NCBI GenBank assembly: GCA_914767715.1
Contig: OU612067.1
Coordinates: 32,090,162 to 32,154,161 of the forward strand
DNA: 64,000 bases
Origin: Membranipora membranacea
Lineage: Eukaryota; Bryozoa; Gymnolaemata; Cheilostomatida; Membraniporidae
Direction: 5' to 3'
Made by a program: the position numbers and the translations under genes. Below, one piece after another: positions 6,341 to 62,186 of the stretch. Below the pieces are notes generated by a model. The model ran no database searches, was not told the DNA's origin, and worked only from the letters and a program-made list of their open reading frames with translations. How positions within the stretch are numbered: position 1 is the first letter of the stretch; each line of letters opens with the position of its first letter.

Positions 6341-8420
6341 AGCTACCATTGTAATTTACCTGGAGCATCAAGTGATTAGCTGCATTGGTACTGAGCATTG
6401 TACCTGAAGATTGCATCCATTTTGTTTAATATATTCTTCTTGCTCTGGTGGTAAATTAGCCCTTGGACCATAGCTACCAAAAAGTTTACAAGACAAATCC
6501 AGAACATGTATGCAGCATCACAAATTTGCCACAGTAATTTAATCAAAGGTCCGTTAGAGACACCACCAGGGAAACAGACAAGGAAACAGACAAAACAAGA
6601 CCCAGTATCGAGCTTGAACCAGAGGGTAGTAGTGCAGCCCACTCTGCAGACACTGAATGAGGACTACATGAACCTTAACTAACTAACAGTAACATAGGAC
6701 TGCCGCAGTTCCTGATTTTGGGCTTGGTGTGGGTGGGGGGTGGGGGGTGGGAAGGATGGAAGCTCTATTTGCTTTGCAATTCTGAGTTTTTAAGTAAACA
6801 TGATTTTTAACTATTCAAGTTTTTCACAATTCCCATACTACAAACTATAACCGGTAGGGGAGAAGAGAAGACAACTATATCGCCTATTCCGCACACATTT
6901 GAGTTATCTTCTCTTATCCCCTACTGGTAATAGTTTGTAGTATGGGAATTGTGAAAAACTTGAATAGTTAAAAATCATGTTTACTTAAAAACTCAGAATT
7001 GCAAAGCAAATAGAGCTTCCATCCTTCCCACCCCCCACCCCCCACTCGCACCAAGCCCAAAATCAGGAACTGCGGCAGTCCTATGAACAGTAACACCTGT
7101 GACCTACCAAGAAATATATGTACAGCAGATCCTCCTGACCTGTAACCCCTATCTGTGGCCAAACCCTTGTATATTTTAAAGTTTTTCAGTGTTCAATGTC
7201 TTCAAAGTTATGAGAGTTTTGTTGTTGTAAGTTTAAGTTTGTGGATACAGGTGATAATAATACTATTGATTGATGGATTTGTAGGACAGAGGATAAAATT
7301 ATGATGATAGTTAGAAGTGAAGCTGGGAGTAAATGAGTGATATTACATGCAAAGTTGAAGGACAATAATAATAGCTGATATTTGTACTTATACATAACCT
7401 TTGTTACTTGTTTGTGAAAACAACAACTTCTTCTTGAAGTGGTGATAATAAAATGACTCTCTCTTCAGTTTGTCTGTTTTGTGTGAACTGGTAACAGTGC
7501 ATTTTATTTTTGGTAATAAGTAGCTTGTTGAATGGTAACAACAAAAAGGTTTGTCTCATATAAGAGGAGACAACTCCTCTAGTTCTAAGAAAGACGGAAG
7601 AGTAAGGTCCACAAAACTAAATCACTAAAAAATGGGTGATCAATCAGGGGTATTTAAGGGCTCTCAACCACTCAGATTTAGCCAAAGTTACTCAAATTTC
7701 TGGGTTGGGCTCAGGCAACTCCAGGGGCTTCAGCTCATCAGGTAAAACTCAGATTCCCCTCATTTTCCTCCAAGTTGGGAATTCCAGAATATACAGTTGA
7801 TTTTGCTTGAGAATCTAGCTGCTGCTAATTGTAAACTGAAAATGTCACCCATAAAACCAATGGAATTTATCTGTAGGTACGCCCCTAAATTGCACACTAG
7901 GTTTGTGGATTCGGACCTTGTTGGGAAGGCCTACATTACAGACCCCAAAACCCTAAGCTGTTCACATGCATGGCATTTCGCGCCTTTAATGTGCCACCAG
8001 GCAACAGGTTATTGGCGAAACTCAGGATTTAGATCCTAAAAGGTTGAGAACCCTGAGGGATATTCTCATGCTGGTAGATATATATATCAGGCAAAGAAAG
8101 TGTAATAAAATAAGGATCTTTGCCTCAGCTCAAACTGGTTTTCCTCATACACAGAGCACATCACAGAAATGAATAGAACATAACTGAATGAAGATAAGCA
8201 TAGCATAAAAACTATTTAATATCTGAATGTTCGTCAAACTACAAATCATCAACAGAAGGTTGAACCAACAATTTGCAGGCTTTGTACAGGGAGGACTCAT
8301 ATTTATCTGATTAGATGCTATGTTTGAACAATCTGTGATTTCCACTGACCCAGTCAAGTACCTATTATCCTTAGCTATGGTAAACAGTCGAGGTTTTAAA
8401 ATATAACACGCTAGAACCCA
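6340..8420 (+). repeat. Left inner arm of the inverted duplication
   Basis: Pairs in reverse complement with 8990-10950. Matching landmarks: 6350-6400 with 10900-10950, 6470-6660 with 10490-10740, 7570-7760 with 9780-9965, 7920-8110 with 9370-9620, and 8210-8400 with 9050-9290. Together with the outer arms this makes one inverted structure from about 0.5 to 14.7 kb. Shared peptide-like pieces (for example 'KTLSCSHA' and 'YWRNSGFRS') occur but frames are broken, so I call no gene. Confidence 0.8.
6693..7085. mobile_element. 393-bp foldback element with 8-bp target duplication
   Basis: Arms 6693-6874 and 6904-7085 are nearly perfect inverted repeats of about 182 bp, separated by about 30 bp. 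Outer ends read 'CATAGGACTGCCGCAG' and its complement. Both sides are flanked by AACAGTAA (6685-6692 and 7086-7093). The other arm of the large inverted duplication, near 10430-10500, lacks the element, so it inserted after that duplication. Eight-base target duplications are typical of hAT and P superfamilies; a CA-starting terminus is compatible with P. No coding capacity. Confidence 0.9.
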
Positions 8421-11340: not shown

Positions 11341-11919
11341 AAAGTGAATGATCATAATGGGAACTCACAGCCTTTCATACTAATCATCAACTGTACTGTC
11401 TGCAACACACAGTAGTTTAGCACTAAAACTATAGGTTATAAAAATACTGGGAAAATATCATTACAGGCAAACATACAGGAAACAATACTTCATTTTCAAA
11501 ATGTAGTATATTCACCTGTTCTGTACAAAATAAAAGCAACAAAGAAAACAAATAACGTTAGAATATCCCTAGCATTCTCCCCATCAACAAGCACAACTGA
11601 AGCATCATTGTTTCTAGTTGTTCGATCCTCACGGTTTTCCTCTGCAGACTCTTCTTCACTTCTACTTTTACTGAGTATATTTCGTTATCATCTAATATCA
11701 TCAATATTATCTTTTTACCCGTGGTTCTTAATTTAAGTTAGGCTGGAAATCTTAGCTGTCTGAATACCGTTCAAGTGTTCTTTATCCCCTTCGAAGTTCT
11801 CTGTCTCGTTGTCCCCAGCTGTTTCTCAAGGTTACCCTTCAGGTGGCGTATGATAGTGTCCTTTCTCACATCAGCAGAACATTGCCAAATAGTGACCTCC
11901 AATGTGTAAAGCCAGCCTT

Positions 11920-12180
11920 TCATTCATAGATATACTCTATATTTGTAAGGGTATACCTGTTCTGTTTTGTATTTATCATTTTCCCTTTAACTGTAGAGAT
12001 ATGTTTTTCTGCAATGGCTTGTTTGTTTCCCATAGCCTCTACCCAGCGGTTGTCTCTATCTATAGTGTTTGGTCTCCTGGAAGCGTAACTTTTTTCTGGG
12101 TTGTCGTTGGATTGGCAACCTAGTCTGTCTGCCTTGTCTTGTGCTTTACTCTCCAGGTATCTACGCCTCGGTCTGTTCAT
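11920..12180 (-). pseudogene. Repeat-encoded ORF fragment, basic, unknown
   Basis: 86 codons, rich in Arg and Lys, with 'DRDNRWVEAMGNKQAIAE' and 'KMINTKQNRYTLTNIEYI'. The same peptide, interrupted, is in the left arm near 1705-1850. Probably a piece of a transposon protein with a basic DNA-binding character; family not recognised. Confidence 0.35.
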
Positions 12181-12450
12181 GTTGTGTCTACACGCACGCG
12201 CGCACGCACATCTCTCTGATAATAGTGATTTTTATGCCTTCTGTTGTGAGACTTACTTGTTATAGACTTTTGGTTACTGGCAGCTTTTGGTATGTATCCA
12301 TCTTCTTGTTTCGTGTTATCATATCTAGCTCTCTCTCTGACTGGTGTTGATTCACAGTTAGTTGTAGGTCAAAATCTTCGCAACTGGCATAAATCTCCAT
12401 AATTTCCTGCGTCAGTACAATAAATTCTTCTTCATCTCTCAGATCAGTTT

Positions 12451-12705
12451 TTAGTTCCTCTTATTATCAGTTGCAGGGCTATTGACATTACAGTCAGGGC
12501 CTGTACCGTTACTTACACTTGTTACTGTACACATAATTGTATCAGTTTTAGTCTGGAGGTGGATAGGACTAGGTTCTGGGTTGTTACCAAGGTTGAGTGT
12601 AGCAGGTTCTTGAGGGGAAATGTTGTTACTGAATGAGTTATTGACTTTAGAGTCAGGATCTAGTTGCAATGGGCAAGAGAGCAGCAGAGTTGGGCGAATA
12701 GACAC
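12451..12705 (-). pseudogene. Repeat-encoded ORF fragment, unknown
   Basis: 84 codons, Asn/Pro/Thr-rich low-complexity sequence ('NNPEPSPIHLQTKTDT'). Matches the left arm at 960-1200, where the frame is broken. No motif. Confidence 0.3.
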
Positions 12706-12719
12706 AGTTTAGGATGAAC

Positions 12720-13480
12720 TCTGCTGTATTTATGAAGTTATCAGGCTTATATTTTCCTGTGTACTACATAATGATATGGATTATCTGCTCTTACACAAAG
12801 AGGAGATAACTGCACATCAGCTTGTGTTTTCCCCTCACTCAAGGAAATAATATGGTTTTCTTGAAGCTTGTCTACGGATAATCGAGACAGACAGACGTCT
12901 GAGTCGATGTGATCTGAATTGATGTCATTACATTTCTTGACGCAAATTTGTTGACAAGAATAAATCCAGCCAGTGCTAGAAACTATAAAACCAAATTGTA
13001 AATGTTAAAGTGATTGCAGATACAGTGGTGTGATTGGTGTGATACAGTGGTTGAAAGCTGAACATTGTATATAGTTACAGCAAACAAACACAATTAAAAA
13101 AATTGATTCTAACCAAAACATTGCTTAATGCTTAGGCCGGAAAAGCTAGCTTATTTCGGGAATTGTACGGCAATGTCTATCCATTGGACAACTAAAAAAA
13201 ATATTTAATCTTGTCCATATATGCATATATGCATCAATGGGAAAGGTCTGAGTTAGTGCGCCATTGACCACTGGACCAATCATTGCCCCAAAAACTGCCA
13301 TTGAACAATTCGGATATCATAGCGAAAGTGTTTGGGTTGCTGTTCTCATCTCCATAAGATCTGAAGGGAACGCCTGGTCTATTATGTACCTTGTCCTCAA
13401 TATGATCAGTGAATATAGTTGGTAAATAACGCATGAAGTATCAGTCCGGAAAATAGCAATAATGATTCTTAGATTATGGT
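12720..13480. other. No gene seen
   Basis: AT-rich sequence absent from the left arm, hence inserted between the two right-arm segments. Confidence 0.4.
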
Positions 13481-14130
13481 GCATATGGAAGTAACCAAGT
13501 GATACTCCAGTGCAAATAATATTCCTGGGCATGTGAACTTATCCAAGACAAAGACCAAAACCAGGAGAATTATCATGTTGTAAGGTGCCCTTTGCAAGTG
13601 GCAGTGTGAAACAGAGCTTTGCCACACTCGATAAGAATCCGACATTGCATTGGATTTCAAGCCAGGAAGACTAGAAAAGACTTTTGATGTGACAATCAAT
13701 CGTGGGGATTTCTGTTATAATTGTAAAAAAGTTTAAGGTGTAACCGGAGCAACACTCTTTACAAGTAATCGAGAAACACTTTAAAGTCTGAATAACGCAT
13801 GAAGGCGAAACACCAGGGTAATTTTGGTGTTTATTGACCTATCAATAATGGTACCAGTGTATCATAATTTCTGGGCATGTGAACACCAGCCAGAAAATAA
13901 AACACCTGAAGGATATCATTCTGTATAGTGCGCTTTGCAAGTGGTAGTGTGTAGCATTGCTCGGCAACACTCGATAGGAACCATAAATCGCATTGGATTT
14001 CAAGCCAGGAAGCAAGGATGACAAATCTATAAACTATATACATTTCTATGGTCATTAATAATAAGAAGTTTAAGGCTGTACCTGAGGCTGATATGATATT
14101 TACAAGTGGTTTCCTTCCCCAGCTGTTATA
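13480..14130 (+). repeat. Tandem duplication, two units of about 355 bp
   Basis: Unit 1 about 13490-13760 and unit 2 about 13845-14110. Shared anchors: 'tgggcatgtgaac', 'gcactttgcaagtgg'-like, 'acactcgataggaa' and 'attggatttcaagccaggaag'. About 75-80% identical. Non-coding; origin unknown. Confidence 0.7.
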
Positions 14131-14289
14131 CAATCTGCCCAACCGTAACATTTTAACGACCAGGGGATTTCCTCCACTGCAGAAAATTACTTCAGAGGTT
14201 TTGTTTCGTACCGAGTGATGCCCGCTTCAGTTTCTGAAGATTTTGAGCATGTGCCAGTTCGCCTCCATTAATTATTCCAGGTCGGCTAG

Positions 14290-14400
14290 GTTGACTGGCC
14301 CGCGACAGCCATATCAGGTAGTACTAGAGAAACAGTGGACCCGGCAGGGCCCGAACCCAGGACCTTTGGATCCCAGGTGCTTAACTTCCTAATCTCAAGT
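14290..14400 (-). mobile_element. tRNA-derived SINE-like fragment
   Basis: On the minus strand a B-box-like 'GGTTCGGGCCC' lies at about 14347-14357, preceded at about the right distance by an A-box-like 'TAGTTGACTTGAG' region (near 14390-14400). The context 'tcctgggttcgggccctgc' is typical of tRNA-related SINE heads. It does not fold as a full tRNA by eye. No tail identified. Confidence 0.5.
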
Positions 14401-14439
14401 CAACTAGACACTGTGAATATTTATTTCATCGGTTCTTTA

Positions 14440-14700
14440 TTTAGTGAATTTGCAAATCATTCTTTTTTTGGGGTATTCATACTGTTATCATCACTCATTA
14501 CATCATCACTATCAATTCCCAACTACAGGAATAACTGGGAGGTGGGACTAGCACAGTCTTTTTCGAGCCAGACATCAAACTGCTTGAGTTCAGCATCACT
14601 GGAGATTTGTGCTCACTCATGGTGGAATATCCTATATAAATGACCCTTTGTATTTTCGGTTGTAGCAGACAAGTTTTTTAATGGACCAATCATGTAACTT
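14440..14700 (-). repeat. Outermost right-arm segment of the inverted duplication
   Basis: Reverse-complement partner of about 630-880; carries the broken copy of the acidic ORF and the 'ggtccattaaaaaacttgtctgcta' equivalent. Separated from the rest of the arm by 12720-14440. Confidence 0.8.
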
Positions 14701-14879
14701 CTTTCTTGTATGTATGTATATTTTTTTATTCTCTCATGCTTGAGAAAACTAAGATTGTGAAAACTGGTCACAGTCACAGTTAGAATATAACGCGCAATGT
14801 CATTGTGTAAACAATGTGGTGAATCTTTTAATTTCATCAATGAAAATATTAAAACACACAAAATAACATGCGCTTCATT

Positions 14880-26450: not shown

Positions 26451-27629
26451 CTTTTATTTTTGAAAACCAACGAATCGGTTTATCATCTCTCTTTTAATGT
26501 CAGCAGATATGAGTCCTCTGACAGAAGTGACCTCTTGACCGGGCTGTCAGGGGTCGGTGGGAGTCCCTCCAACTCACCCAACCATCCCCGACAGTCAGCC
26601 CAGGCCTTTATTATAATATATATAAAAACTTTACTAATGACAATGAATAAAATGAGTTGTCTTGCCTTTTGATGGCAGGAATAACAGCAATTAAGAGGAG
26701 GAGAGGACCGCTCTTGATTGTGAAAGAGTATTATAATTATTCAAACAAGAAAAGTGATAATAAAGTAATAAGCAAAAAAAGGAAAAAGTTATGCTGCAAG
26801 AAGACAACTTTGGGAGACAGCATATTGTTCAATTTTTTTGTTCTGTAGGATATTACTGTAGTAAAATTGTCAGTTGGTATTTTAAGGGAATCACATTGAC
26901 AGCAGATCGATTGTATTTATGGTGAAGCACAGTATTGATGGATAACTAATGTTACCCAAGCAATAGTACTTTCAATCAGAATGTGAATTGTGATTTCGAA
27001 AACATAAGACAAGAGAAAAGAAAAATGAAAACAATAAGTACAGGGCAGCAAATCTGCAGTCAGATAGTACATTCAATGACAATGCTAGCCCAACATGGGA
27101 TTAAATTTTGCTGATAAAAATGGAAGATCACTTTTTACCTAGATCTGTTTTAAAACTATTAGTTAGGTGGTGAACCAGATCACTGTTATAAGATCTTATC
27201 AATAAATTATAAACACACAAATATCATGCAGTGCAAAATGTTAAAAAATATATTATGATGAGACTGGGAAAATATGCATGCCATAATAACATCAGTTACG
27301 TTATCCCTTTCATTAAAAAACAGAAGAAAGACTGAGATACAAATAACTCCCCTTGGTAATAATAACGACAGGGAAAAGGTAAACTAGGTTAAATCAAAAA
27401 AAGAAAAATTCAAAAATAACTGAATCACATTGAGCTTGTGCAGCAGCTGAGAGATTTATTGCGCTGTTGGTGGTTTTCTATCAGCCGCAAGTTCGGGTTA
27501 GTCCGTCCTAACACCTGCTTCAGTACTAGGCTTGAAAAGAGGGCCCCTGTGAATACGAGAGAGATTGTATACCATCCGGCTATGAGCTAGAGGTGCCAGG
27601 ATGACCATGCTCCCTCCGTTTGCCCAGAT

Positions 27630-27810
27630 GCGTTCAGTACGAAAACGCTGCCTTGACTCGCATTCGGCGGTACAAGTAGTGCAGCATTTGACTGACTTGT
27701 GGCTCTTTACGGTCATGAGTTCGGCAAACAAGCTCTTCTCGTAACCCATGAGAAATGTGACTAAGGATTTTCGGCTGATCTATAATAACACAAACTTGGA
27801 TATTAATATT
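27630..27810 (-). pseudogene. Terminal-exon paralogue, Tyr replaced by Phe
   Basis: After an acceptor-like 'gttattatag' (minus, at about 27785) the exon reads 'KSLFAELMTVKSHKSVKCC' and 'TAECESRQRF', matching the last exon at 50040-50177. The motif position that carries Tyr in the array is Phe here. The splice phase does not agree with the donor at 27998, so the locus is probably a pseudogene. Confidence 0.55.
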
Positions 27811-27997
27811 CTTATAATATGTAGCAGGAACTAACAATAACAATCAATAATTTTCTTCTTTCCTATTCCTTTCAAATATATTCAGTGATAGTGATGACAT
27901 TGTAAACCAGGACTACTAATAATGATGATTGAAAGCAAACTAAAAAGGCTAAAAAACTGACAACGACACTGTCAAAAATTAATGTGTGTTCACTAAC

Positions 27998-28194
27998 CTG
28001 TCCTTCTGACTTAACCTTCCTAGCTGACAGATCTCAGCATATTTGGAGCGGGTGAGTGCGTTGCCCGTTACTGATTTGATCAGGAAAATACGATCAGTGC
28101 AGCATTTGACGGACTTCTGGCTTCTGGAGCTTCCCAGTTGGCATATCTCAGCGTATTTGGAGTGGGTGAGTACGGTGCTTGTCAGTGGGGTGAT
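27998..28194 (-). pseudogene. Fused double tyrosine-motif exon
   Basis: 197 bp: acceptor 'attttt cag' before 28194, donor CAG|GTTAGT at 27998. Encodes two motif units in one exon, each with 'SKYAEICQLG'. Between them is 'RIFLIKS', which corresponds in DNA to the end of an intron and its acceptor, so an intron has been largely deleted and the two units joined. Each motif fits S-x-Y-x-x-I. Confidence 0.6.
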
Positions 28195-28329
28195 CTGAAA
28201 AATTGAAATCAATGTAATTTAATTGTTGGTTTGCACAGCTGCATGCATAACATGAACAAATAATTACACAACCAGATAACTTTCTTTCCTAATGGGGGGC
28301 TATGCAAGCTTATCTCAAGTGCTTTTTAT

Positions 28330-36957: not shown

Positions 36958-37190
36958 CTGAAATGAGTGGAAAACCTTTCTAAGCATTTTTAAAAGCCTA
37001 CGATACCTTACCCTAATAATTTTAAAGTGCTCCTCTATTTGAGACATACGCTCAAATGATTCATAAACTGCTGTCTTCCAGTATTATTTGTTGGCGAAGC
37101 ACTATGAAAGCGACCATGAACAGGACCTAAATAGTTTGGCGTCAATATAAGACAGAGAAGTATCCAATTTCTGTTTTTTTTTAACTTTAT

Positions 37191-37346
37191 TGGCATAATA
37201 TTCGTTCGATGAGAATGTTTTACAAAATCAGCTTTCCAAGAAAACAAAAATAGGGGAAAAAAAAAACCAAAATTTTTTTGGTTTTTTTCATCCCTTTTTT
37301 TGTTATCTTGGAAGGCTGATTTTGTAAAACATTCTCATCGAATGAA
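37191..37346. mobile_element. Foldback element, about 156 bp, near TTAA sites
   Basis: Arms of about 53 bp ('ttggcataat.ttcg' ... 'tcatcgaatgaaaattatgccaa') with an A/T-rich loop. TTAA occurs next to both ends (about 37181 and 37359), the target of Kolobok and piggyBac elements. It lies just downstream of the THAP exon, in the intron. Confidence 0.7.
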
Positions 37347-37419
37347 AATTATGCCAAAAAAGTTTAAAAAAAAAAAACTTTCTATCAAGAAGAAAAAAAA
37401 TTTCAATCACTGTTCTGTT

Positions 37420-38400: not shown

Positions 38401-38890
38401 CTCTCACGCCCTTTCTTCCTCCCTATCTCCATCCTTCCCTATCTCCTTCCCTATCTACCTCCCTATCTTCCTCCCTATCTACCTCCCTATATCCATCCTT
38501 TCCTATCTACCTCCCTATCTCCTTCCCTATCTACCTCCCTATCTTCCTCCCTATCTACCTCCCTATATCCATCCTTTCCTATCTACCTCCCTATCTCCTT
38601 CCCTATCTACCTCCCTATCTCCATCCTTTCCTATCTACCTCCCTATCTCCTTCCCTATCTACCTCCCTATCTCCATCCTTTCCTATCTACCTCCCTATCT
38701 CCTTCCCTATCTACCACCCTTTCTCCATCCTTTCCTATCTACCTCCCTATCTATCTCCCTATCTCATCTCCTTCCCTATCTACCTCCCTATCTCCATCCT
38801 TTCCTATCTACCTCCCTATCTCCTTCCCTATCTACCTCCCTATCTCCTCCCCTATCTACCTCCCTATCTCCTTCCCTATCTCCATCCCTG
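38401..38890 (+). repeat. CCTATCTACCTC minisatellite
   Basis: About 490 bp of pyrimidine-only repeats made of 'ccctatctacctccctatct' and 'ccatcctttcctatctac' variants, higher-order period about 64 bp. The long open frame it produces (repeats of YLPPYL) is a by-product. Confidence 0.9.
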
Positions 38891-43613: not shown

Positions 43614-46600
43614 AACTCTACCTGGAGAAGATCCCCGGATTCACCCAGACGGTCCCAAGTCCGTGTAAAAGAGGAGGGTTGTGTCTGGGTCAACTACCCA
43701 TTCACATAAAAAAAAACCCAGTTACAGAAACAGAATCGAATAATCTTACCCAAAATAGTTACGGAGGACGCAGAAAAAGAAAATTCCAGCCTCGAGAAGG
43801 CTACATGACCGGCAGAGACCAAACCCCTCGGGAAGTTTCTGTTGTGAATTTGGATAGGAGTACATTTCTGCTGGCCCCGCGACAACTACTACGTGTTGGT
43901 GCCTGGAATGTCAGGACCATGTATGCGGACGGGCGCACCGAGCAGGTGGTGGGAGAGTTCCGACGAATGAAGCTGGAGCTTCTGGGTATAAGTGAGAGCA
44001 GATGGACGAGAGAAGGAGAGGAGAGATTGGAGACTGGAGAAATAGTGTTGTACTCGGGAAGGCAAGATAATCAGCACCATCAGGGTACGGCTTTGATGTT
44101 GACCTTGAAGGCGAGAAAGAGCTTGATTGATTGGAAGCCAATCAATCCGCGACTGATGACAGCTAGATTCGAGGGAAAATGCACCAACCTAAGTGTCATT
44201 GTTTGTTATGCCCCGACCAACGAGGCAGAGGATGAGAAAAAGGATGAGTTCTATATGTCCCTACAGAAGGCTAAAGATGAGGTCCCCAGACATGATATGC
44301 TTCTGGTTCTGGGAGATCTCAACGCACAAGTTGGAACGGTCAACATAGGGATGGAGGATACTTTAGGGCAGCATGGAGTTGGGGCGGCGAACGATAATGG
44401 AGAGAGGCTTATACAGTTTGGAAGAATAAATGGCATGGTGATTGGGGGTTCTATTTTCCCTCACAAAGATATACACAAGTTAACGTGGCGTTCCCCTCGC
44501 GGACAGCTAACTCAGATAGACCATTTGCTGATAAACAGGAAGTGGAGGAGATCCCTGCATGATGTGAGAGTGATGCGATCTGCAGATGTGTACAGCGATC
44601 ATTATCTGATCCTTGGAAAAGTGCGACTCAAACTAGCCGGAAAGTGTAAAGCGCCGAGTCTAAAGGCTAAATGGAATCGCAATCTACTTAAACTGACGAA
44701 GATAAAAGAAAGGTTCACAGCAGCAATGGAGAATAAGTTCAGTCAACTTCAGGAATTACCGGAAGATACCCCTGTTAATGAAAGATGGACGAAGATCAAG
44801 GAAGCATACCATGATGTTGGAGAAGAGATAGTAGGAAGAGAAAAGCGCAGGGAACCTGCACACTGGATGTCAGAAAGATCATGGGAGTTGATAGAACGAA
44901 GACAGGAAGCAAGGCGTAAAGTCTTGGGCACTCATTCAAGACGCGTAGCAGCACGCCTAGAGGAAGAGTACAAAGAGTTTGCGAAGTTAGTCAAAAAGAG
45001 CGTGCGGAAGGACAAGAGGGACAACATCGAAGATATGGCAGGAGCTGCACAAGAAGCTGCTGACATGGGTCAGATGAAGGCAGTGTACGATATCACGAGA
45101 GAGCTGAGCGGAACGAGGCGGAAATCAACTGCTAGACTCAAGGACAAGAATGGTCAAATAGTTGTTGACCCCAAAGAACAAGCAAAGATCTGGACAGCGC
45201 ACTTTCAAGAAGTTCTTAATCAGGCAGAGCCTGAGGACCCCTTGGATATACCCAGCACAGGTACGGATTTGGAGATAGATGATGATCCACCTAGTCTTTC
45301 GGAGATTGAAGAGATTATCAAAGCCTCGCGCAATGGTAAAGCGCCAGGAATTGATGAGCTACCTGCAGAGTTTTTACGCTGTAACAGTAGCTCATGCGCA
45401 GCAGAACTCGAGACATTGTTCTCGGGTATATGGAGAGAAGAAGACATCCCACAAGACTGGAGGCGCGGTGTGATCATCAAACTGCCCAAGAAAGGAGACC
45501 TGAGTAAGACAACAAATTGGAGGGGTATTACTCTACTACCGTATATCAGTAAAATATTTCTGAAGATTTTACATCACCGAATTGCCGGAGCCCTAGAGGA
45601 GAACAGAAGTCTAGATGAAGAGCAAGCAGGTTTTCGCAGCGGAAGAAGTTGTACAGACCACATATTTACACTGAGGAACATCATAGAACAATGTGAAGAA
45701 TGGAGGATGCCCCTGTACGTCAATTTCATTGATTTCAGGAAAGCTTTTGACAGCATTCATCGGGAGAGCATGTGGAAAGTGATGAAGTTTTATGGTATCC
45801 CTGATAAACTCATCACTCTGACACGGGCGTTCTACACCGGGTATGCGTGTAAAATGCAAGGCGGAGCAGAGGACGATTACTTCGAAGTAAAATCAGGAGT
45901 TAGACAGGGCTGCGTAATCTCACCTCTGTTATTTATCATGGCTACAGACTTAATAATGAAGCAAGTACAAGCGACACATCGAACTGGACTCCGATGGAAT
46001 CTTACAACCAAGCTGAATTATCTAGCTTATGCAGACGATGTCGCGCTATTTTCTACAACACATGGAGGGATGCAAACAGTTACAGATAAGCTCATAACAA
46101 CAGCGAGTAAAGCGGGATTGCACATCAATGAACAAAAGACGAAAGTTTTGAGGATTCATCGAGATGGAATGGGCCCTGCATCTAACAACAATTTCACAGT
46201 CAGCAACAAGTCACTCGAGTTTGTAGATAACTTTTTGTATCTTGGTGCGAAAATTGATGCGTCTGGTGGTGCAGCAGCAGATGTCAAGAACCGCATCAAC
46301 TCTGCAACTACAGCTTTTTACAGACTGAACAAGGTGTGGAGATCAAGAAGTATGAGCAACCATCTCAAGTTCAAACTCTACAACTCGAACGTGGTGTCTG
46401 TGCTCCTCTATGGATGTGAAACATGGCGAATGACGAAAGTGGATATGGACAAACTGGAGGTATTTCACATGAACTGCTGCCGTCGGATATTGAAAATATA
46501 TTGGTGGTCCAAAACTTCCAACTTGGAAGTATGTGAACGCAGCAAGCAGAAACCAGTCTCTCAGCACATTGAAGTTAGAAGATGGAGATACCTAGGACAC

Positions 46601-46847
46601 AGCCTAAGGAGGAAGGAATCTCTCCCTCACACCAGTCTCGGATGGGCCCCTGAAGGCACCCGAAGGAGAGGGCGACCCAATCAGACTTGGCGAAGAACGG
46701 CGCTCAAACAGATGAAGGTACACAACATCAAGTCGTGGGCGGAGGCTAGCGAGATGGCTAGAGATCGAGAAAGATGGAAGGGAAAGGAGAAGGCGATTCT
46801 GGCGCAATATTCCACTAGGAGTTCTGCAACATAAGTCAAGTAAGTCA
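43614..46847 (+). mobile_element. Full-length non-LTR retrotransposon (RTE-like), 3234 bp
   Basis: Flanked by perfect 10-bp duplications GTATAGAAGT at 43604-43613 and 46848-46857. It starts 'aactctacctggagaag' and ends 'aagtcaagtaagtca', a short repetitive tail of the RTE type rather than poly-A. It carries one ORF. Full length, intact frame and perfect target duplication indicate recent insertion. Confidence 0.85.
43805..46834 (+). CDS. Endonuclease-reverse transcriptase of the LINE
   Basis: Frame open from 43616 to 46834; first ATG at 43805, giving about 1009 aa (1051 if read from the earlier non-ATG point). Apurinic-type endonuclease first: 'GAWNVRTMYA' (43897), 'GDLNAQVG' (44310), 'SDHYLILG' (44596). 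Then reverse transcriptase: 'NGKAPGIDELPAEF' (45333), 'KLPKKGD', 'FRSGRSCTDH', 'IDFRKAFDS' (motif A, 45728), 'GVRQGCVISP' (45898), 'LAYADDVAL' (catalytic motif C, 46024), and a C-terminal 'RRRGRPNQTWRR'. All catalytic residues seen are intact. It nicks target DNA and copies its RNA in place. RTE is my best clade; other endonuclease-type clades are possible. Confidence 0.9.
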   Translation: MTGRDQTPREVSVVNLDRSTFLLAPRQLLRVGAWNVRTMYADGRTEQVVGEFRRMKLELLGISESRWTREGEERLETGEIVLYSGRQDNQHHQGTALMLTLKARKSLIDWKPINPRLMTARFEGKCTNLSVIVCYAPTNEAEDEKKDEFYMSLQKAKDEVPRHDMLLVLGDLNAQVGTVNIGMEDTLGQHGVGAANDNGERLIQFGRINGMVIGGSIFPHKDIHKLTWRSPRGQLTQIDHLLINRKWRRSLHDVRVMRSADVYSDHYLILGKVRLKLAGKCKAPSLKAKWNRNLLKLTKIKERFTAAMENKFSQLQELPEDTPVNERWTKIKEAYHDVGEEIVGREKRREPAHWMSERSWELIERRQEARRKVLGTHSRRVAARLEEEYKEFAKLVKKSVRKDKRDNIEDMAGAAQEAADMGQMKAVYDITRELSGTRRKSTARLKDKNGQIVVDPKEQAKIWTAHFQEVLNQAEPEDPLDIPSTGTDLEIDDDPPSLSEIEEIIKASRNGKAPGIDELPAEFLRCNSSSCAAELETLFSGIWREEDIPQDWRRGVIIKLPKKGDLSKTTNWRGITLLPYISKIFLKILHHRIAGALEENRSLDEEQAGFRSGRSCTDHIFTLRNIIEQCEEWRMPLYVNFIDFRKAFDSIHRESMWKVMKFYGIPDKLITLTRAFYTGYACKMQGGAEDDYFEVKSGVRQGCVISPLLFIMATDLIMKQVQATHRTGLRWNLTTKLNYLAYADDVALFSTTHGGMQTVTDKLITTASKAGLHINEQKTKVLRIHRDGMGPASNNNFTVSNKSLEFVDNFLYLGAKIDASGGAAADVKNRINSATTAFYRLNKVWRSRSMSNHLKFKLYNSNVVSVLLYGCETWRMTKVDMDKLEVFHMNCCRRILKIYWWSKTSNLEVCERSKQKPVSQHIEVRRWRYLGHSLRRKESLPHTSLGWAPEGTRRRGRPNQTWRRTALKQMKVHNIKSWAEASEMARDRERWKGKEKAILAQYSTRSSAT

Positions 46848-49400: not shown

Positions 49401-50310
49401 TAGGCTAGAATATCAGTGGGTTTTTATTACAATAATAATGAATGCAATGAGTTGTCTTGCCTTGTGATGGCAGGAATGACAACGATTATGATGAGGAGAG
49501 AGCCCCTCTTGTTTGTAACATAGTAAAAATCTTCAATAGTGCTTATACTGTGAGGAGACAACTTTTGAATACTGGGAATAGTTCAGATTTTTGGTGCTGT
49601 AGGATATACAGTTAATCAAATAGTCAGTTGGTATTTTAAGGGCATCACACCCTCAGCAGATAGAGTGTATTTATGGTGAGAATGCGTTTTGTGGTTTCGA
49701 AAAGATAAGAAAATTGATAAACGAAAAAAAAAGTACAGAGCAGCATATGTGCAGAAAATTGGTGAAAAATGCGCTCTTTAAAAGGTCACCAAGATGAACT
49801 AAGTTAAATCAATAGCGAAACAAAACATCAAACATAACATTTGCACAAAATTGAACTACATTGCTGTGCTCGTGCAGCAGCTGAAAAAAATTGGCTGCTG
49901 CCTTCCTGTGTGGTTGTTGGTGGCCATATCCACCTTCCTCATTTGGTGGTTTTATGTCAGCTACGAAGTTTGGTGAGCCTGTCCTCACAACACCTGTTTC
50001 AACACTGGGCTCGAAGAGAGAAGCCCAGATGCCTTCAGTCTACAAACGCTGCCCTGACTCGCATTCGGCCATATGAGCAGTGCAGTGTTTGACGGACTTC
50101 TGGCTTCTGGAGCTTCCCAGTTGGCATAGCTCTGCGTGTTTGGGGCGGTCGAGAACGGTGCTTGCCAGCGGGTTGATCTGAAAAATATAATGTTGTAATT
50201 AAAATGTTGGTTTGTGCAGCTGCCAGCATAACATGAAACAACAATGACACATCCAGATAACTTTCTTGCCTAATGCGGGGCTATCCTAGCCTAATCTCAA
50301 AGGCCCCTTG
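49400..50310 (-). repeat. 3' end of the tyrosine-exon gene, shared with 26600-28330
   Basis: Contains the terminal exon and a long 3' flank on the minus strand. A possible polyadenylation signal (AATAAA, seen as 'tttatt') is at about 49425. Confidence 0.7.
50040..50177 (-). CDS. Last exon; motif Tyr replaced by His
   Basis: Acceptor 'atatttttcag' before 50177; 45 codons ending TAG. Reads 'DRPKHAELCQLGSSRSQKS', so the Tyr of the motif is His. Ends 'MAECESGQRL'. Confidence 0.7.
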   Translation of the reverse strand: MNPLASTVLDRPKHAELCQLGSSRSQKSVKHCTAHMAECESGQRL

Positions 50311-53300
50311 CTGTTTTCTCACTTTAAAAACAAAAAGGAGCCTTTTAGATAAGGCTAGGCTATTCCCATGCTGGGCCAGTAAATATTCGACACTGGACAT
50401 GCTCTGTAGTCAGCTGATAAAAAATTCATACTGAGGCTGGGCTGCCGTGGGGGTTATTCATTGCTAGTTGAGCTTTTACCATGAGAGCTTTGAAAAAGGG
50501 GAACAAATTTGACATCTTGTTGCCTTAATTGCCTTAACCATGCATCTAACCTTCAAGGGGGGTGTCTTTAATCACATTGCTCAAAATTATCTCTCATTTT
50601 AAGCTAGACAAAATATTTGTTCCCAAATCGCTTACTGAGAATGTATATGGTTCCATCAATGAGTGACCGATTTGGGAGCGAGGCCCTAGAAGGTATCACT
50701 CACTCATTGAGCGATTAAATTGCAATATTGGCTGTTTGTAATTGAAAACCCTTCCCCAGATTAATTATTACTCACCTCTACATCCGTTGGATTACTAGAT
50801 TCTACAGAAGAAAATGAAGGAGTGTGCACCATCACTTCTTTCTTCTCTAAGTTTTGCAGTTGACATATCTCCGCGTATGTGCTTACCATTGGATTGGTCT
50901 GTTAAAAAAATAATAGGGTTTGAATGCTAGACCACCAGGATAAAAAGAATGCAGAATAAACCAAAGACTGAAAAAGCCTAGAAGACCAGCTAGCCTCCTG
51001 CTTAGCTATCCCAATACTGTCAGAGTAATCAAAAAAACAACAGAGCACTCCCGGTGGCTTTATGTTTGGTCCACCTCATAGAAAACCCTGCTGGGTCATG
51101 ATGCTAAATAATTCATGCTTACCTTTATATCCATTAGATTTGGGGACCGGACTATCAGACATGAGGGTGTATTCACCAACCCTCCCTTCTTCTCGAGGCG
51201 ATCTAGTTGACATATCTCAGCGTATATAGAGTAAGTAGGTGCGGTGCTCGTCACTGGATTTATCTGGAAATTGAGATGTCATGTTGCTTGAGTTTTGTTT
51301 GGTCAAGCCTCTAGCAGTATAATGTAATAAGACATTGCAGAAGCAACGCAGGTTTGTCAAAATCTGGACGACTGGTCCATCTCCTAATGGGCAATTAAAT
51401 TATGGATTGGGCCCACAAAAAGGTCTGTGATGTAAATAATACAAGACTGCCAGGACTGGAACTATCAATCAAGAAAGCTCCTGATGCATCAATGTTGCCT
51501 TAACCAACCAGATTTTTTAATGCTCACCTTTACATCCATTTGAATAAGGGAGTCGACAGTTGAACATGAAGGTGTTCGTACCAAGCGATGTTTGCTTACC
51601 TGAATATCCATTGGTACTGGGGATTTAACTGTTGAACATGAATGTGTTTGTACCAATCCTTCCATCTTGCCTATGCTTTCTGCCTGGCAAATTTCTGCGT
51701 ACACAGATTTGGTGGGTACTGTGCTGGTCACTGCCATGGTCTAGAAAAATAATAAACATAATGTCATTGCAATGTTTGCTGGTGGTCGACAATGAAACGA
51801 CACAGAAGAAATGTAAAATTGAGAAAACCTAGATACTGGCCTGTCTCATGCTGGGCTATCCCACAGCCAGCCCTTAAAAGCGTTCGGGATGGCGATGTTT
51901 GCTTACCTGAATATCCATTGGTACTGGGGATTTAACTGTTGAACATGAAGGTGTTTGTACCAATCCTTCCATCTTGCCTATGCTTTGTGCCTGGCAAATT
52001 TCTGCGTACACAGATTTGGTGGGTACTGTGCTGGTCACTGCTATGGTCTGGGAAAAATAAACATAATGTTATTGCAACGTTGGCTGGTGGTTAATCATCA
52101 TGAGACAATAAAGCAACACAGAAGAAAAGTACAATCGAGACAACTTAGATACAGGCCTGTCTCATGCTGGGCGATTCCATAGCCAGCCCTTATAAGCGTT
52201 CAGGATGGCAATGTTTGCTTACCTGAATAAGTATTGGTTCTGGGGATTTAACTGTCAAACATGAAAGTGTTCGTACCGGTCCTTCCTTTTGCTCTATGCT
52301 GTGTGCCTGGGAAATGTCTGCGTACACAGATTTGGTGGGTACTGTGCTGGTCACTGCTATGGTCTGGGAAATATAATAAACATAATGTTATTGCAATTTT
52401 CGCTGGTGGTCGATAATTTGTGACGAAAAAACAACCGAAATACTTAAACATTGACACAAGCTATATACTGGACAAAACAACACAATTGCAATAAGGGCAC
52501 TGTTTGGTCTTTTTGAGAAGCATCTAACCCTCCAGATTGTCGCTCACCTTTACATCCATTAGTTCTACAGATTCCATAGTTGAACATGAAGGATTACATG
52601 CCGATCCTCCCTTCTGCTCTATGCTTTGTGCCTGGCATATTACTGCGTATAGAGACTTGGTGGGTACTTTGCTGGTCACCGCTATGGTCTGGGATATAAA
52701 CATAATGTTATTGCAATGATTGCTGGTGGTCTATCATTATGAGACGAAAAAACAGCGCAGAGGCCATGGAGCATTGAGAGAACCTAGATAGTGGCCTGTC
52801 TCATGACCTCATGATAAAGAGAAAACAGAATCAAACTTTCATCTTCACTAATGTAAGCTTACCTGTATGTCAATTAGCTTTGCAGATTCCACAGCTGTAC
52901 ATGAGGGTTTACGCGCCAGCTGTTCTTCTTTCTGATCTGAGCTTCCTGCTTGACATATTTCTGCGTATAGAGCTTTAGTGGGTGCAGTTCTCTTCACCGA
53001 GTTGACCTGGAAAATGAGATTCCGCACAATTTGAATAGAAGTTCGCGCATTTGTCATATACTCATTATTAACGCAATGTCTAGTCCGTAGGAAACTAAGA
53101 GAACCGAGTTTAAGGCTTGCCTCATGCTTAGCTATCCCCATAATGCAACAAAACTGGAGACAGGCACTGACTGGTTTAATGCCAGGTTCCCCCAATACCG
53201 TCCTTTTTAAAGTCACTGATTGGGTCATGATGTAGCCAATGCATGTTATTGTCACACTTAAAACTTGAACAAACTACGCCAAATCCTGTTGATTGACCTA

Positions 53301-54306
53301 AATCTGGTTGCCTAAACTTCTGCGAGTCACATTGACAACCACTAGAAAATTATCTTTGAGAAACGAGCAGAAGAGCAGGGAGGACCTGACTCTATTACCT
53401 CTGTAGGCCAGTTGTATGAACAACCATTCAACAAGTTTTAAATAGGTTGACGTTTTAATCCTACCTCGACAGTCTCCGTTGTGCAATTTGCTGTCTTAGT
53501 TGTTGCGTCTTCTTCATCTATTAAGGGATCACACCCTTCAAGGAATACACTCTGTACTGTTGTACAACCCCCCAACTGCGTCGACTAAAACAAACGCACA
53601 ATACCGAATTTGGGAAATTTGGACTGGGATCATTACAAATCTATTTTCATTCCAAAATCTTAACAGCGAATAACATTATTTGTGAAGAAAACAAGTAGGA
53701 GGTAAGTATTGTATACCTCAGTCTCCTTTACTGGAGAGTCAAAAGTGATAATGGCGACAGAAGAATCTGCCTTCACCAGCTCGCCCTGTGGTGTATGATG
53801 GACCTGAAGCAAAAGAGGGACATTAATTACTCAGTAGAACTACTAAATCACCATGTGGCATAATTGAAAATACATGAAGTTGATGGGAATGCAGACGAGT
53901 GGCAGATACTACTCGAAAATATGTTGATAGGACTGAATTGGCATTTGGACAAAATTGAAACTTATATTTTGTTACTATTCTACATCATCAATTTCAAAAA
54001 TCTAGTAAACTGATGCTACCATCTCACCTTTGGAAGACACTGTGTAGGATTTGGCTCCAGATCATCTTTCTGACAGGGTTTGTTAGAGAAAACGAAGATA
54101 TGGCTACTGAAATGAGTTCTAGAGAGGTAGGTTAAAAAAATTAAAAAAATTTACACACCTTTATGTTCTATATTCATTTCTAACCACAAATTATCTAAAT
54201 TCAATGACAGGTAGAAAAGTGCTGTGAGTTAGCTGATATAGATACAAACCTCAAGGGCCTGACTCTGCTTCTCTATAACTGTGCACTCAGGTGACTGAGG
54301 TCCAAC
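50040..54306 (-). CDS. Tandem tyrosine-motif exon gene (signalling tail), 5' part outside
   Basis: Minus-strand gene of at least twelve exons, all phase 0 at both ends: 54262-54306 (tentative), 54028-54069, 53717-53803, 53465-53584, then eight homologous exons, 52863-53006, 52548-52688, 52223-52363, 51907-52047, 51600-51740 (or to 51528), 51123-51263, 50776-50898 and the last, 50040-50177. Each homologous exon encodes 'TST-P-T-K-S-x-Y-A-E-I-C-Q', a charged linker and a 'PSCSTV-S-P' tail. S-x-Y-x-x-I fits the ITIM consensus, and Y-A-E-I resembles the Src-SH2 ligand Y-E-E-I. No transmembrane segment or enzyme domain is in the window, so I infer the cytoplasmic tail of a receptor or an adaptor. 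Transposons occupy everything upstream. No known family recognised. Confidence 0.7.
50776..50898 (-). CDS. Tyrosine-motif exon, short form
   Basis: 123 bp, 41 codons. Acceptor 'ttttttaacag', donor GAG|GTGAGT. Motif 'VSTYAEICQLQN'; lacks about six residues before the motif compared with the other units. Confidence 0.75.
51123..51263 (-). CDS. Tyrosine-motif exon
   Basis: 141 bp, 47 codons, donor AAG|GTAAGC. Motif 'TYSIYAEICQLDR'. More diverged from the next four exons. Confidence 0.8.
51528..51740 (-). CDS. Tyrosine-motif exon with two in-frame donors
   Basis: Acceptor 'atttttctag' before 51740. Motif 'TKSVYAEICQAES'. First donor CAG|GTAAGC at 51599. The frame runs on for exactly 72 bp, encoding a second 'LVRTPSCSTVDSLIQ' tail, to a second donor AAG|GTGAGC at 51527. 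Looks like a unit whose intron and first half were deleted. Confidence 0.75.
51907..52047 (-). CDS. Tyrosine-motif exon
   Basis: 141 bp. Motif 'TKSVYAEICQAQS'; acceptor 'tttttcccag', donor CAG|GTAAGC. Differs from the 51600-51740 exon at very few bases, and flanking intron is also near-identical, so the duplication is recent. Confidence 0.85.
52223..52363 (-). CDS. Tyrosine-motif exon
   Basis: 141 bp. Motif 'TKSVYADISQAHS' (Glu to Asp, Cys to Ser). Donor CAG|GTAAGC. Confidence 0.85.
52548..52688 (-). CDS. Tyrosine-motif exon
   Basis: 141 bp. Motif 'TKSLYAVICQAQS' (Glu to Val). Donor AAG|GTGAGC. Confidence 0.85.
52863..53006 (-). CDS. Tyrosine-motif exon, first of the array
   Basis: 144 bp, 48 codons. 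Motif 'TKALYAEICQAGS'. Acceptor 'tcattttccag', donor CAG|GTAAGC. Ala at -2 is outside the strict ITIM set. Confidence 0.8.
53465..54069 (-). CDS. Three upstream phase-0 exons of the same gene
   Basis: 53465-53584 (120 bp, 'GGCTTVQSVFLEGCDPLIDE'), 53717-53803 (87 bp, 'VKADSSVAIITFDSPVKE') and 54028-54069 (42 bp, 'KDDLEPNPTQCLPK'). All have GT-AG borders and phase 0, so any can be skipped without a frameshift. No tyrosine. A further small exon ('SPECTVIEKQSQALE', 54262-54306) is tentative. Confidence 0.55.
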
Positions 54307-54528: not shown

Positions 54529-55348
54529 GTCAATGTTATGATGGTGCCTCGGCTATGCAAGGTAAGAAGAATGGCCTTAAGACACGCATTCTAGAGGATA
54601 ACGACAAAGCTATTTTTGTGCATTGCTATGGCCATGCTTTAAATCTAGCCGTGCAGGATACAGTGAAGTCGCTCGCTCCTGTCAGAGATCTCCTGGATAC
54701 AACATACAAAGTCACCAAACTTGAGAGACAATGTTAGAGGACATCAAAGCCCGTCTGAAGAGCTCTAAGGGTGTTGTGAGGACACTCTGTCCTACAAGGT
54801 GAGAAAAAAATTAAATTAAAACATCATGACCTCAACACGATGCGTCACATTTCGTACTTGTTGCTATTTGTAACATGTAATAAAAACATAATGTAACTTG
54901 GTGTGTCTACTTGAGTTAACCAAGGACATTTATTCTCATAATGAACTACCTTGATACAACTGTCCTCAGTATTCTGATTCTTCTGCAGTGGCGGACAGTT
55001 AAAGCAGATTGCCTGGAATATATTATGACGATCTATAAGGAGCTGCTTCTTCTATGGGAGCAGAGCTTAGAAGCAGGTATATCTGACAGTGACATGAAGG
55101 CACGGATAATCGGTGTAAAAAGTATGATGGAGCAGTTTAAATACTTGATAAGTAAGTATGAGTTAAGGCCCAAACATTGAAAGCCATCATGGAGTTTATA
55201 ACAATCCTTCACATTGCTATATGTCTGAGCACCGTCTTAACACTCTGATGGTCCTCCACATCTATAAGGAGGTAACCAGCAATATGAATATCCAGGCTGT
55301 AATCAAACAGTTTGTGAGCGCTAAGCCTGGTCGCTCTGACAGGATTGC
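54529..55348 (+). pseudogene. hAT/DUF4371-type transposase, 5' portion of split copy
   Basis: Acceptor 'tatgatttcag' before 54529. Exon 54529-54798 has 'QCYDGASAMQGKKNG' and 'FVHCYGHALNLAVQD' (DUF4371 core with C-x-x-H), then a frameshift at about 54733. Exon 54989-55151 after 'ttctgcag' has 'KADCLEYIMTIYKELLLL' and 'KARIIGVKSMMEQF'. From about 55220 'EHRLNTLMVLHIYKEVTSN' is the hAT C-terminal dimerisation helix. The ORF is cut at 55348 by a 6-kb insertion and resumes at 61385. N-terminal exons (BED finger) are missing. Similar to ZMYM1-like proteins. Dead by frameshift. Confidence 0.75.
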
Positions 55349-55460
55349 TATGGCGGCCCATAGCACCTTTATTAATGCGCATTAGCTAACATGCTAACTC
55401 GCTAAGTCGCTAATGCGCATTAGTTAACATGCTAACTCGCTAACTCGCTAATGCGCATTA
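55349..55460 (+). repeat. Left terminal inverted repeat of the 6-kb element
   Basis: 'tatggcggcccatagcacc' then three AATGCGCATT palindromes separated by CTAACATGCTAACTCGCTAA-type units. Confidence 0.85.
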
Positions 55461-55534
55461 AGAGATTAAAGATTTCCAGAAATATTTTTGGGTCTGTCTT
55501 TAAGCATGTGCGGGCTATCACTGTCTTGATATGG

Positions 55535-61236: not shown

Positions 61237-61376
61237 ACCGCGAGTTAGTGAGTTAGCATGTTAATTAATGCGCATTAGCGAGTTAGCGAGTTAGCATGTT
61301 AACTAATGCGCATTAGCGACTTAGCGAGTTAGCATGTTAATTAATGCGCATTAATAAAGGTGCTACGGGCCGCCAT
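61237..61376 (-). repeat. Right terminal inverted repeat of the 6-kb element
   Basis: Reverse complement of 55349-55460 with one more TGCTAACTC-type unit on its inner side. Confidence 0.85.
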
Positions 61377-61615
61377 AGGATTGCCACCAAGTAGGCTGTG
61401 ACTAAGTATCTTGAACATTATTTTAGCATTATCTGAAAATATTTTTCATACTTTTGCTTTATACTTTATATGCAAATATAGCTACAAGTTTGCTTCTAAA
61501 GGCCGAGGGTCCGCCCCGGACCCCGTTGGGGGCTTACAGCGCCCCCTAAAACCCCCTGGCTTTTTCTAAAAGTTATACCCCTGATACCGTTAGTATCAGG
61601 GAGGTTCTGCTTACC
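61377..61615 (+). pseudogene. hAT 3' end: last codons, UTR and terminus
   Basis: Resumes the hAT ORF ('RIATK' then TAG at about 61389). Further on a GC-rich block 'ggaccccgttgggggctt' leads to 'ctaaaagttatacccctg' at about 61593, typical of a hAT right end (inverted: CAGGGGTATAAC). A small hairpin 'ccctgatac' / 'gtatcaggg' spans 61593-61615. No matching left end was found. Confidence 0.55.
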
Positions 61616-61957: not shown

Positions 61958-62186
61958 AAGTGGCCATTTCCGAAAAGCAGCTCCTCATAGTTTTGAAGAA
62001 GAAGAAGAAGAAGATGCTATTTGAGCTTGTTTGTTATGAGACTACTATGCTTTGTGTATATAATACAGAGTAGCCTAACTTAGCATCATTTACAAAGCAT
62101 AGTAGTCTCATAACAAACAAGCTCAAATAGCATCTTCTTCTTCTTCTTCAAAACTATGAGGAGCTGCTTTTCGGAAATGGCCACTT
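61958..62186. mobile_element. 229-bp foldback element in an intron
   Basis: Arms 61958-62055 and about 62092-62186, almost perfect, including a (GAA)5/(TTC)5 stretch, around a 37-base loop. No clear target duplication. Confidence 0.8.

Follow-up and report, generated by a model that had tools for sequence, protein, structure and literature searches.

Tandem phase-0 exons with a constrained YAEICQ tyrosine motif at the probable 3' coding end of an animal gene

The exon array and its surroundings

The window, that is, the whole 64,000-nucleotide stretch of DNA that was analysed, carries eight homologous exons (e1 to e8, Table 1) between 53006 and 50040. Their coordinates, lengths and phases agree with the initial annotation, which did not give the strand; the array lies on the minus strand. 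We took the splice boundaries from the sequence. AG precedes the start of each exon and all eight are in phase 0. Exons e1 to e7 end with the codon [ACG]AG followed by a donor (GTAAGC for e1, e3, e4, e5 and e6, GTGAGC for e2 and GTGAGT for e7), and e8 closes with TAG. The regular period described for the upstream part was confirmed, start-to-start distances being 307-325 bp across e1-e5 and larger beyond e5. The motif Y-A-[EVD]-I is retained in seven of the eight exons, e8 having H-A-E-L in its place. The repeat unit comprises about 47 residues with two frequent cysteines (residues 18 and 35 of e4), and motif tyrosines, spaced 41-48 residues apart, account for seven of the eight tyrosines of the 369-residue tail. 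The proposal of an open array of phase-0 exons with a single motif tyrosine in each is supported.

Table 1. Positions of the repeat units and of candidate features associated with them
Feature	Position	Strand	Length	Motif position	Remarks
Candidate exon, weak	54250..54294	-	15 aa		Phase 0; AG acceptor, weak GTTTGT donor; no homology support
Candidate exon, weak	54028..54069	-	14 aa		Phase 0; AG / GTGAGA; no homology support
Candidate exon	53717..53803	-	29 aa		Phase 0; AG / GTATAC; no Tyr; no homology support
Candidate exon	53465..53584	-	40 aa		Phase 0; AG / GTAGGA; no Tyr; no homology support
e1	52863..53006	-	144 bp	ALYAEICQ	
e2	52548..52688	-	141 bp	SLYAVICQ	
e3	52223..52363	-	141 bp	SVYADISQ	
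e4	51907..52047	-	141 bp	SVYAEICQ	
e5	51600..51740	-	141 bp	SVYAEICQ	98% identical to e4
Half-exon	51528..51584	-			3' half of unit, lacking the motif; GTGAGC donor of its own but no acceptor; frame continuous with e5
e6	51123..51263	-	141 bp	SIYAEICQ	
e7	50776..50898	-	123 bp	STYAEICQ	Short form
e8	50040..50177	-	138 bp	PKHAELCQ	Terminal exon; length includes TAG stop
Candidate poly(A) signal	49423..49428	-			AATAAA; putative signal of the array gene
p1	28081..28194	-		SKYAEICQ	Sister of e8 in tree; preceded by an AG acceptor that aligns with the e8 acceptor
p2	27982..28080	-		SKYAEICQ	Shares one open frame with p1; stop at end

The array is open over 369 codons, as against 3711 stops among the 63998 minus-strand codons of the window. 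Neutral evolution of e1-e7 was simulated along a star with e2 as ancestor and branch lengths of 0.2, 0.3, 0.4 and 0.5, and under this crude, simple base-frequency model none of the 20000 runs at any of the four divergences retained the seven frames, the splice dinucleotides and YAxI together. Retention in the array exceeds chance expectation. We take the array to be, in all likelihood, where the coding part of a eukaryotic and probably animal gene ends at its 3' side.

Four candidate exons upstream of e1 were called from splice signals and an open frame only, and none contains a tyrosine. If they are real, phase 0 would be general in the gene rather than peculiar to the array. The 40-residue candidate was rejected as a diverged repeat unit (best E 5.9 with a profile of the eight units). 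Between 54.3 and 64 kb the minus strand has 15 open stretches of 60 residues or more, and neither a transmembrane segment nor a Pfam domain above cut-off was found in the 10 longest of these; the N-terminal part of the gene would thus lie beyond the window or be unrecognised.

No Pfam family scored above cut-off in the conceptual tail, and two matches below cut-off (E 0.034 and 0.064) were taken as chance. Viral contigs gave 14 pattern matches with a 189-residue query and 64 with a four-unit alignment (A2), and genome contigs gave five with the same alignment; none was confirmed. A tblastn search of phages with e4 and e5 returned no match. Since these contig and phage collections are prokaryotic or viral, a miss there says little. 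The single match of e1-e3 among solved structures (E 0.58) was judged chance, and Rfam and tRNA scans were empty.

Several other features were observed in the window. A retrotransposon frame of 1072 open codons (43616-46834, plus strand; RVT_1, E 7.3e-35) lies between the array and a second locus near 28 kb described below; its search against genome contigs gave 25 pattern matches, none confirmed. An element of about 6 kb upstream of the array is suggested by two 114-bp inverted repeats (97% identity) at 55348-55461 and 61265-61378; 38-bp tandem repeats occur at each end of this stretch. A number of further open stretches presumably resemble transposase fragments; Pfam gave no confirmation for those tested. 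The segments 621-2571 and 11353-14712 form a long inverted match, broken into pieces of 67-93% identity, and foldback-like palindromes of 200-393 bp, with 89-93% self-complementarity, lie at 6693-7085, 37174-37373 and 61958-62186. A degenerate CCCTATCTCCCT-type tandem array with three open plus-strand frames occupies 38409-38889.

Selection on the tyrosine motif

The effect of selection on the motif was determined by Nei-Gojobori counts over all 45 pairs of ten units (e1-e8 and the two units of the second locus, p1 and p2). The eight-codon core SVYAEICQ gave pS 0.68 and pN 0.17 (ratio 0.25), and the non-core codons pS 0.51 and pN 0.41 (ratio 0.80); when e8 was left out the ratios were 0.21 and 0.78, respectively. 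Since pS is higher in the core than outside it, the depletion of nonsynonymous differences is not due to a low mutation rate. In an eight-codon sliding window the core was the minimum among 41 windows. Differences at codon positions 1, 2 and 3 numbered 25, 26 and 86 in the core and 252, 277 and 329 outside (21 pairs of seven units). The initial annotation had regarded a lack of constraint between units as evidence against its reading; the array reading survives this comparison, the tyrosine motif being the most strongly constrained stretch of the unit.

Because the pairs have common ancestry, two controls were applied, Fisher tests on disjoint pairs and random column sets. One-sided Fisher tests gave a median p of 0.003 (worst 0.052) over 105 matchings of eight units, 0.006 (worst 0.054) over 15 matchings of six divergent units, and 0.004 over 105 matchings of eight units including e8, where the worst value, 0.065, was also the worst of all 225. 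Random eight-column sets had a ratio as low as the core in 45 of 50000 draws with ten units and in 60 of 50000 with seven divergent units. The core signal was weaker in e1-e7 alone (521 of 50000).

In the seven divergent units pN was 0.00 at Y, A, I, C and Q, 0.11 at E, 0.39 at position -2 and 0.64 at position -1. Over three unit sets pN at -2 was 0.35-0.39, compared to 0.00-0.21 over positions 0 to +5. The value at -2 is inflated, since serine is encoded by two codon families (TCN and AGC); serine, by which the motif formally qualifies as an ITIM, stands there in eight of ten units, with no measurable constraint. Ala +1 and Gln +5 do not vary among the ten units, and the tyrosine and Cys +4 are each present in nine. 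The constrained word is YAEICQ, from position 0 to +5. A serine close to the unit end had a pN of 0.00 in each of the three unit sets and an aspartate close to the unit end had pN 0.00 in the seven divergent units, indicating that the core is not the sole constrained place. The recent pairs showed no constraint, with synonymous and nonsynonymous differences of 3 and 15 (e3-e4), 3 and 17 (e3-e5), 0 and 3 (e4-e5) and 4 and 17 (e8-p1).

A second locus and turnover of the units

A profile built from the eight units was run over every open stretch of 15 residues or more in the six reading frames of the window. Beyond the array's own exons it found one strong stretch, 28218-27982 on the minus strand (E 1.8e-27; the next match had E 0.59), which contains p1 and p2. 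The cores of p1 and p2 differ by synonymous changes only, in four codons; the whole units differ by 10.3 synonymous and 26.7 nonsynonymous changes, with no apparent constraint. DNA alignment showed that 28318-26631 is collinear with 50300-49427 over the intron end, the terminal exon and the 3' flank (68.9-83.2% by piece), and we read 26631..28318 on the minus strand as a paralogous 3' gene end. A second gene may end here; alternatively, the segment may be a truncated copy or may serve the array gene as a distant alternative last exon.

In the tree p1 and e8 were joined with support 100/100, and p2 belonged neither to this pair nor to the e1-e5 clade (94/97), its position beside e6 and e7 not being resolved. 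The placement of p1 and p2 suggests that diversified units were already present before the two loci separated. In e8 the motif has decayed: compared to p1, His replaces Tyr, Leu replaces Ile and Pro replaces Ser. The branch length of e8 is 0.22 against 0 for p1.

The initial annotation had also taken near-identical introns as a sign that the array is still turning over. Signs of unit turnover were indeed found, but "near-identical" overstated the likeness of the introns: among the six pairs of i1-i4, identity is 87% for i3 and i4 (164 aligned bases) and 69-75% for the remaining five pairs. The youngest group in the tree is e3, e4 and e5. The e4 and e5 exons have 0 synonymous and 3 nonsynonymous differences, whereas the introns preceding them, 87% identical as a whole, drop to 57% identity in one 30-base block, a pattern that fits local gene conversion or a recent exon-centred exchange. 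The frame is open from e5 through the half-exon behind it, so that use of the half-exon's donor would give a phase-0 exon of 213 bp and 71 codons; we take the half-exon to be a trace of past unequal exchange.

Interpretation and comparison with known motif systems

On the evidence of the sequence we lean, by a little over an even chance, towards the array encoding the C-terminal tail of a receptor or scaffold of animal type, in which SH2-ligand sites stand in tandem and their valency is given by exon number. This tail would be flexible and rich in Ser and Thr, with Y-A-E-I-C-Q once per exon unit, the exons being spliced in vivo and the tail lying in the cytosol. The motif tyrosines would be phosphorylated by a Src-type kinase; V-Y-A-E-I resembles, by the preferences that we assume, a Src-family kinase substrate and a SHP-2 ligand. 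SH2 domains read forward from the tyrosine, and SH2 proteins, at best guess SHP-type tandem-SH2 phosphatases, would read the tail from pY to +5. Duplication of exons, unequal exchange, decay of the motif (as in e8) and possibly exon skipping could alter the number of sites with the frame kept. An AlphaFold2 model of one unit (mean pLDDT 59.2, pTM 0.15; one helix, residues 13-24) fits a flexible tail, although with an alignment of only eight rows its low confidence is no proof of flexibility.

The array and the second locus could instead be the debris of a once functional gene that has lost expression. The lost motif of e8, the truncated half-exon, the two fused units at 28 kb, the absence of constraint between the most recent pairs and the repeat-rich surroundings all point that way. 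However, e1-e7 retain all their reading frames and splice dinucleotides, a state not kept together with the motifs in any neutral run, and the core is under constraint; we consider a decaying gene unlikely, although in a variant of this explanation the constraint may belong to the past and silencing be recent. Y-A-x-I also conforms to the pattern Yxx[LMIFV], matched by nine of ten units, so YAEI might be a YxxPhi endocytic sorting signal, a ligand of AP-2 mu2, and the array a device for multivalent internalisation and not for phosphotyrosine signalling. The YxxPhi consensus leaves +1 and +5 free, whereas both residues, Ala and Gln, are fixed in the units here, and a sorting signal needs no long series of evenly spaced copies, which makes this explanation rather improbable.

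The cysteines, and not the tyrosine, might also be the point of an extracellular or structural repeat of disulphide-linked units or palmitoylated cysteines. Each unit has two frequent cysteines, and the second has a low pN (0.11) within e1-e7; over all ten units, however, it is unconstrained (pN 0.43), and Cys +4, present in nine units, is kept less strictly than Ala +1 and Gln +5 and no more strictly than the tyrosine. The disulphide form was rejected, as cysteines are lost singly (the first is absent in e3 and the second in e7), and we give the cysteine explanation as a whole little credence.

Beyond the SH2-ligand tail that we favour, it is conceivable, but doubtful, that the units represent a lineage-specific animal signalling family in which phosphotyrosine valency evolves by copying of a 141-bp phase-0 exon, YAEICQ is read unlike an ITIM, at least two loci exist and the number of sites varies among individuals or transcripts. 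If the array is expressed, it would be a natural case of docking-site number shifting exon by exon with the frame intact, and would allow a direct test of signalling output against motif number. The selection pattern predicts that the positions enforced by the binding protein are 0 to +5.

Among known motif classes, the ITAM consists of two Yxx[LI] about 6-12 residues apart and was rejected, the motif tyrosines of the array being 41-48 residues apart. The ITSM (TxYxx[VI]) was also rejected, since none of the ten units matches it and threonine never occurs at -2; the array nevertheless shares with the ITSM of SLAM-family receptors a hydroxyl at -2 (eight of ten units), Ala at +1 and a branched aliphatic residue at +3. 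In the YxxP region of p130Cas and the ITAMs of TCR zeta, spaced copies of one motif confer valency as well, but the motif is another one (YxxP and paired YxxL/I, respectively); p130Cas is not known to have an exon-per-motif design. The ITIM consensus [ILVS]xYxx[ILV] is matched by eight of ten units (e2-e7, p1 and p2), the exceptions being e1, with Ala at -2, and e8, which has no tyrosine. ITIM tails, as in KIR, LAIR, SIRP, PECAM-1 and the Siglecs, carry few motifs and not seven in homologous exons, and no ectodomain was seen here. The small residue at +1 and the aliphatic residue at +3 are common to these tails and the array, whereas constraint in the array spans 0 to +5, including Cys +4 and Gln +5, and does not measurably extend to -2.
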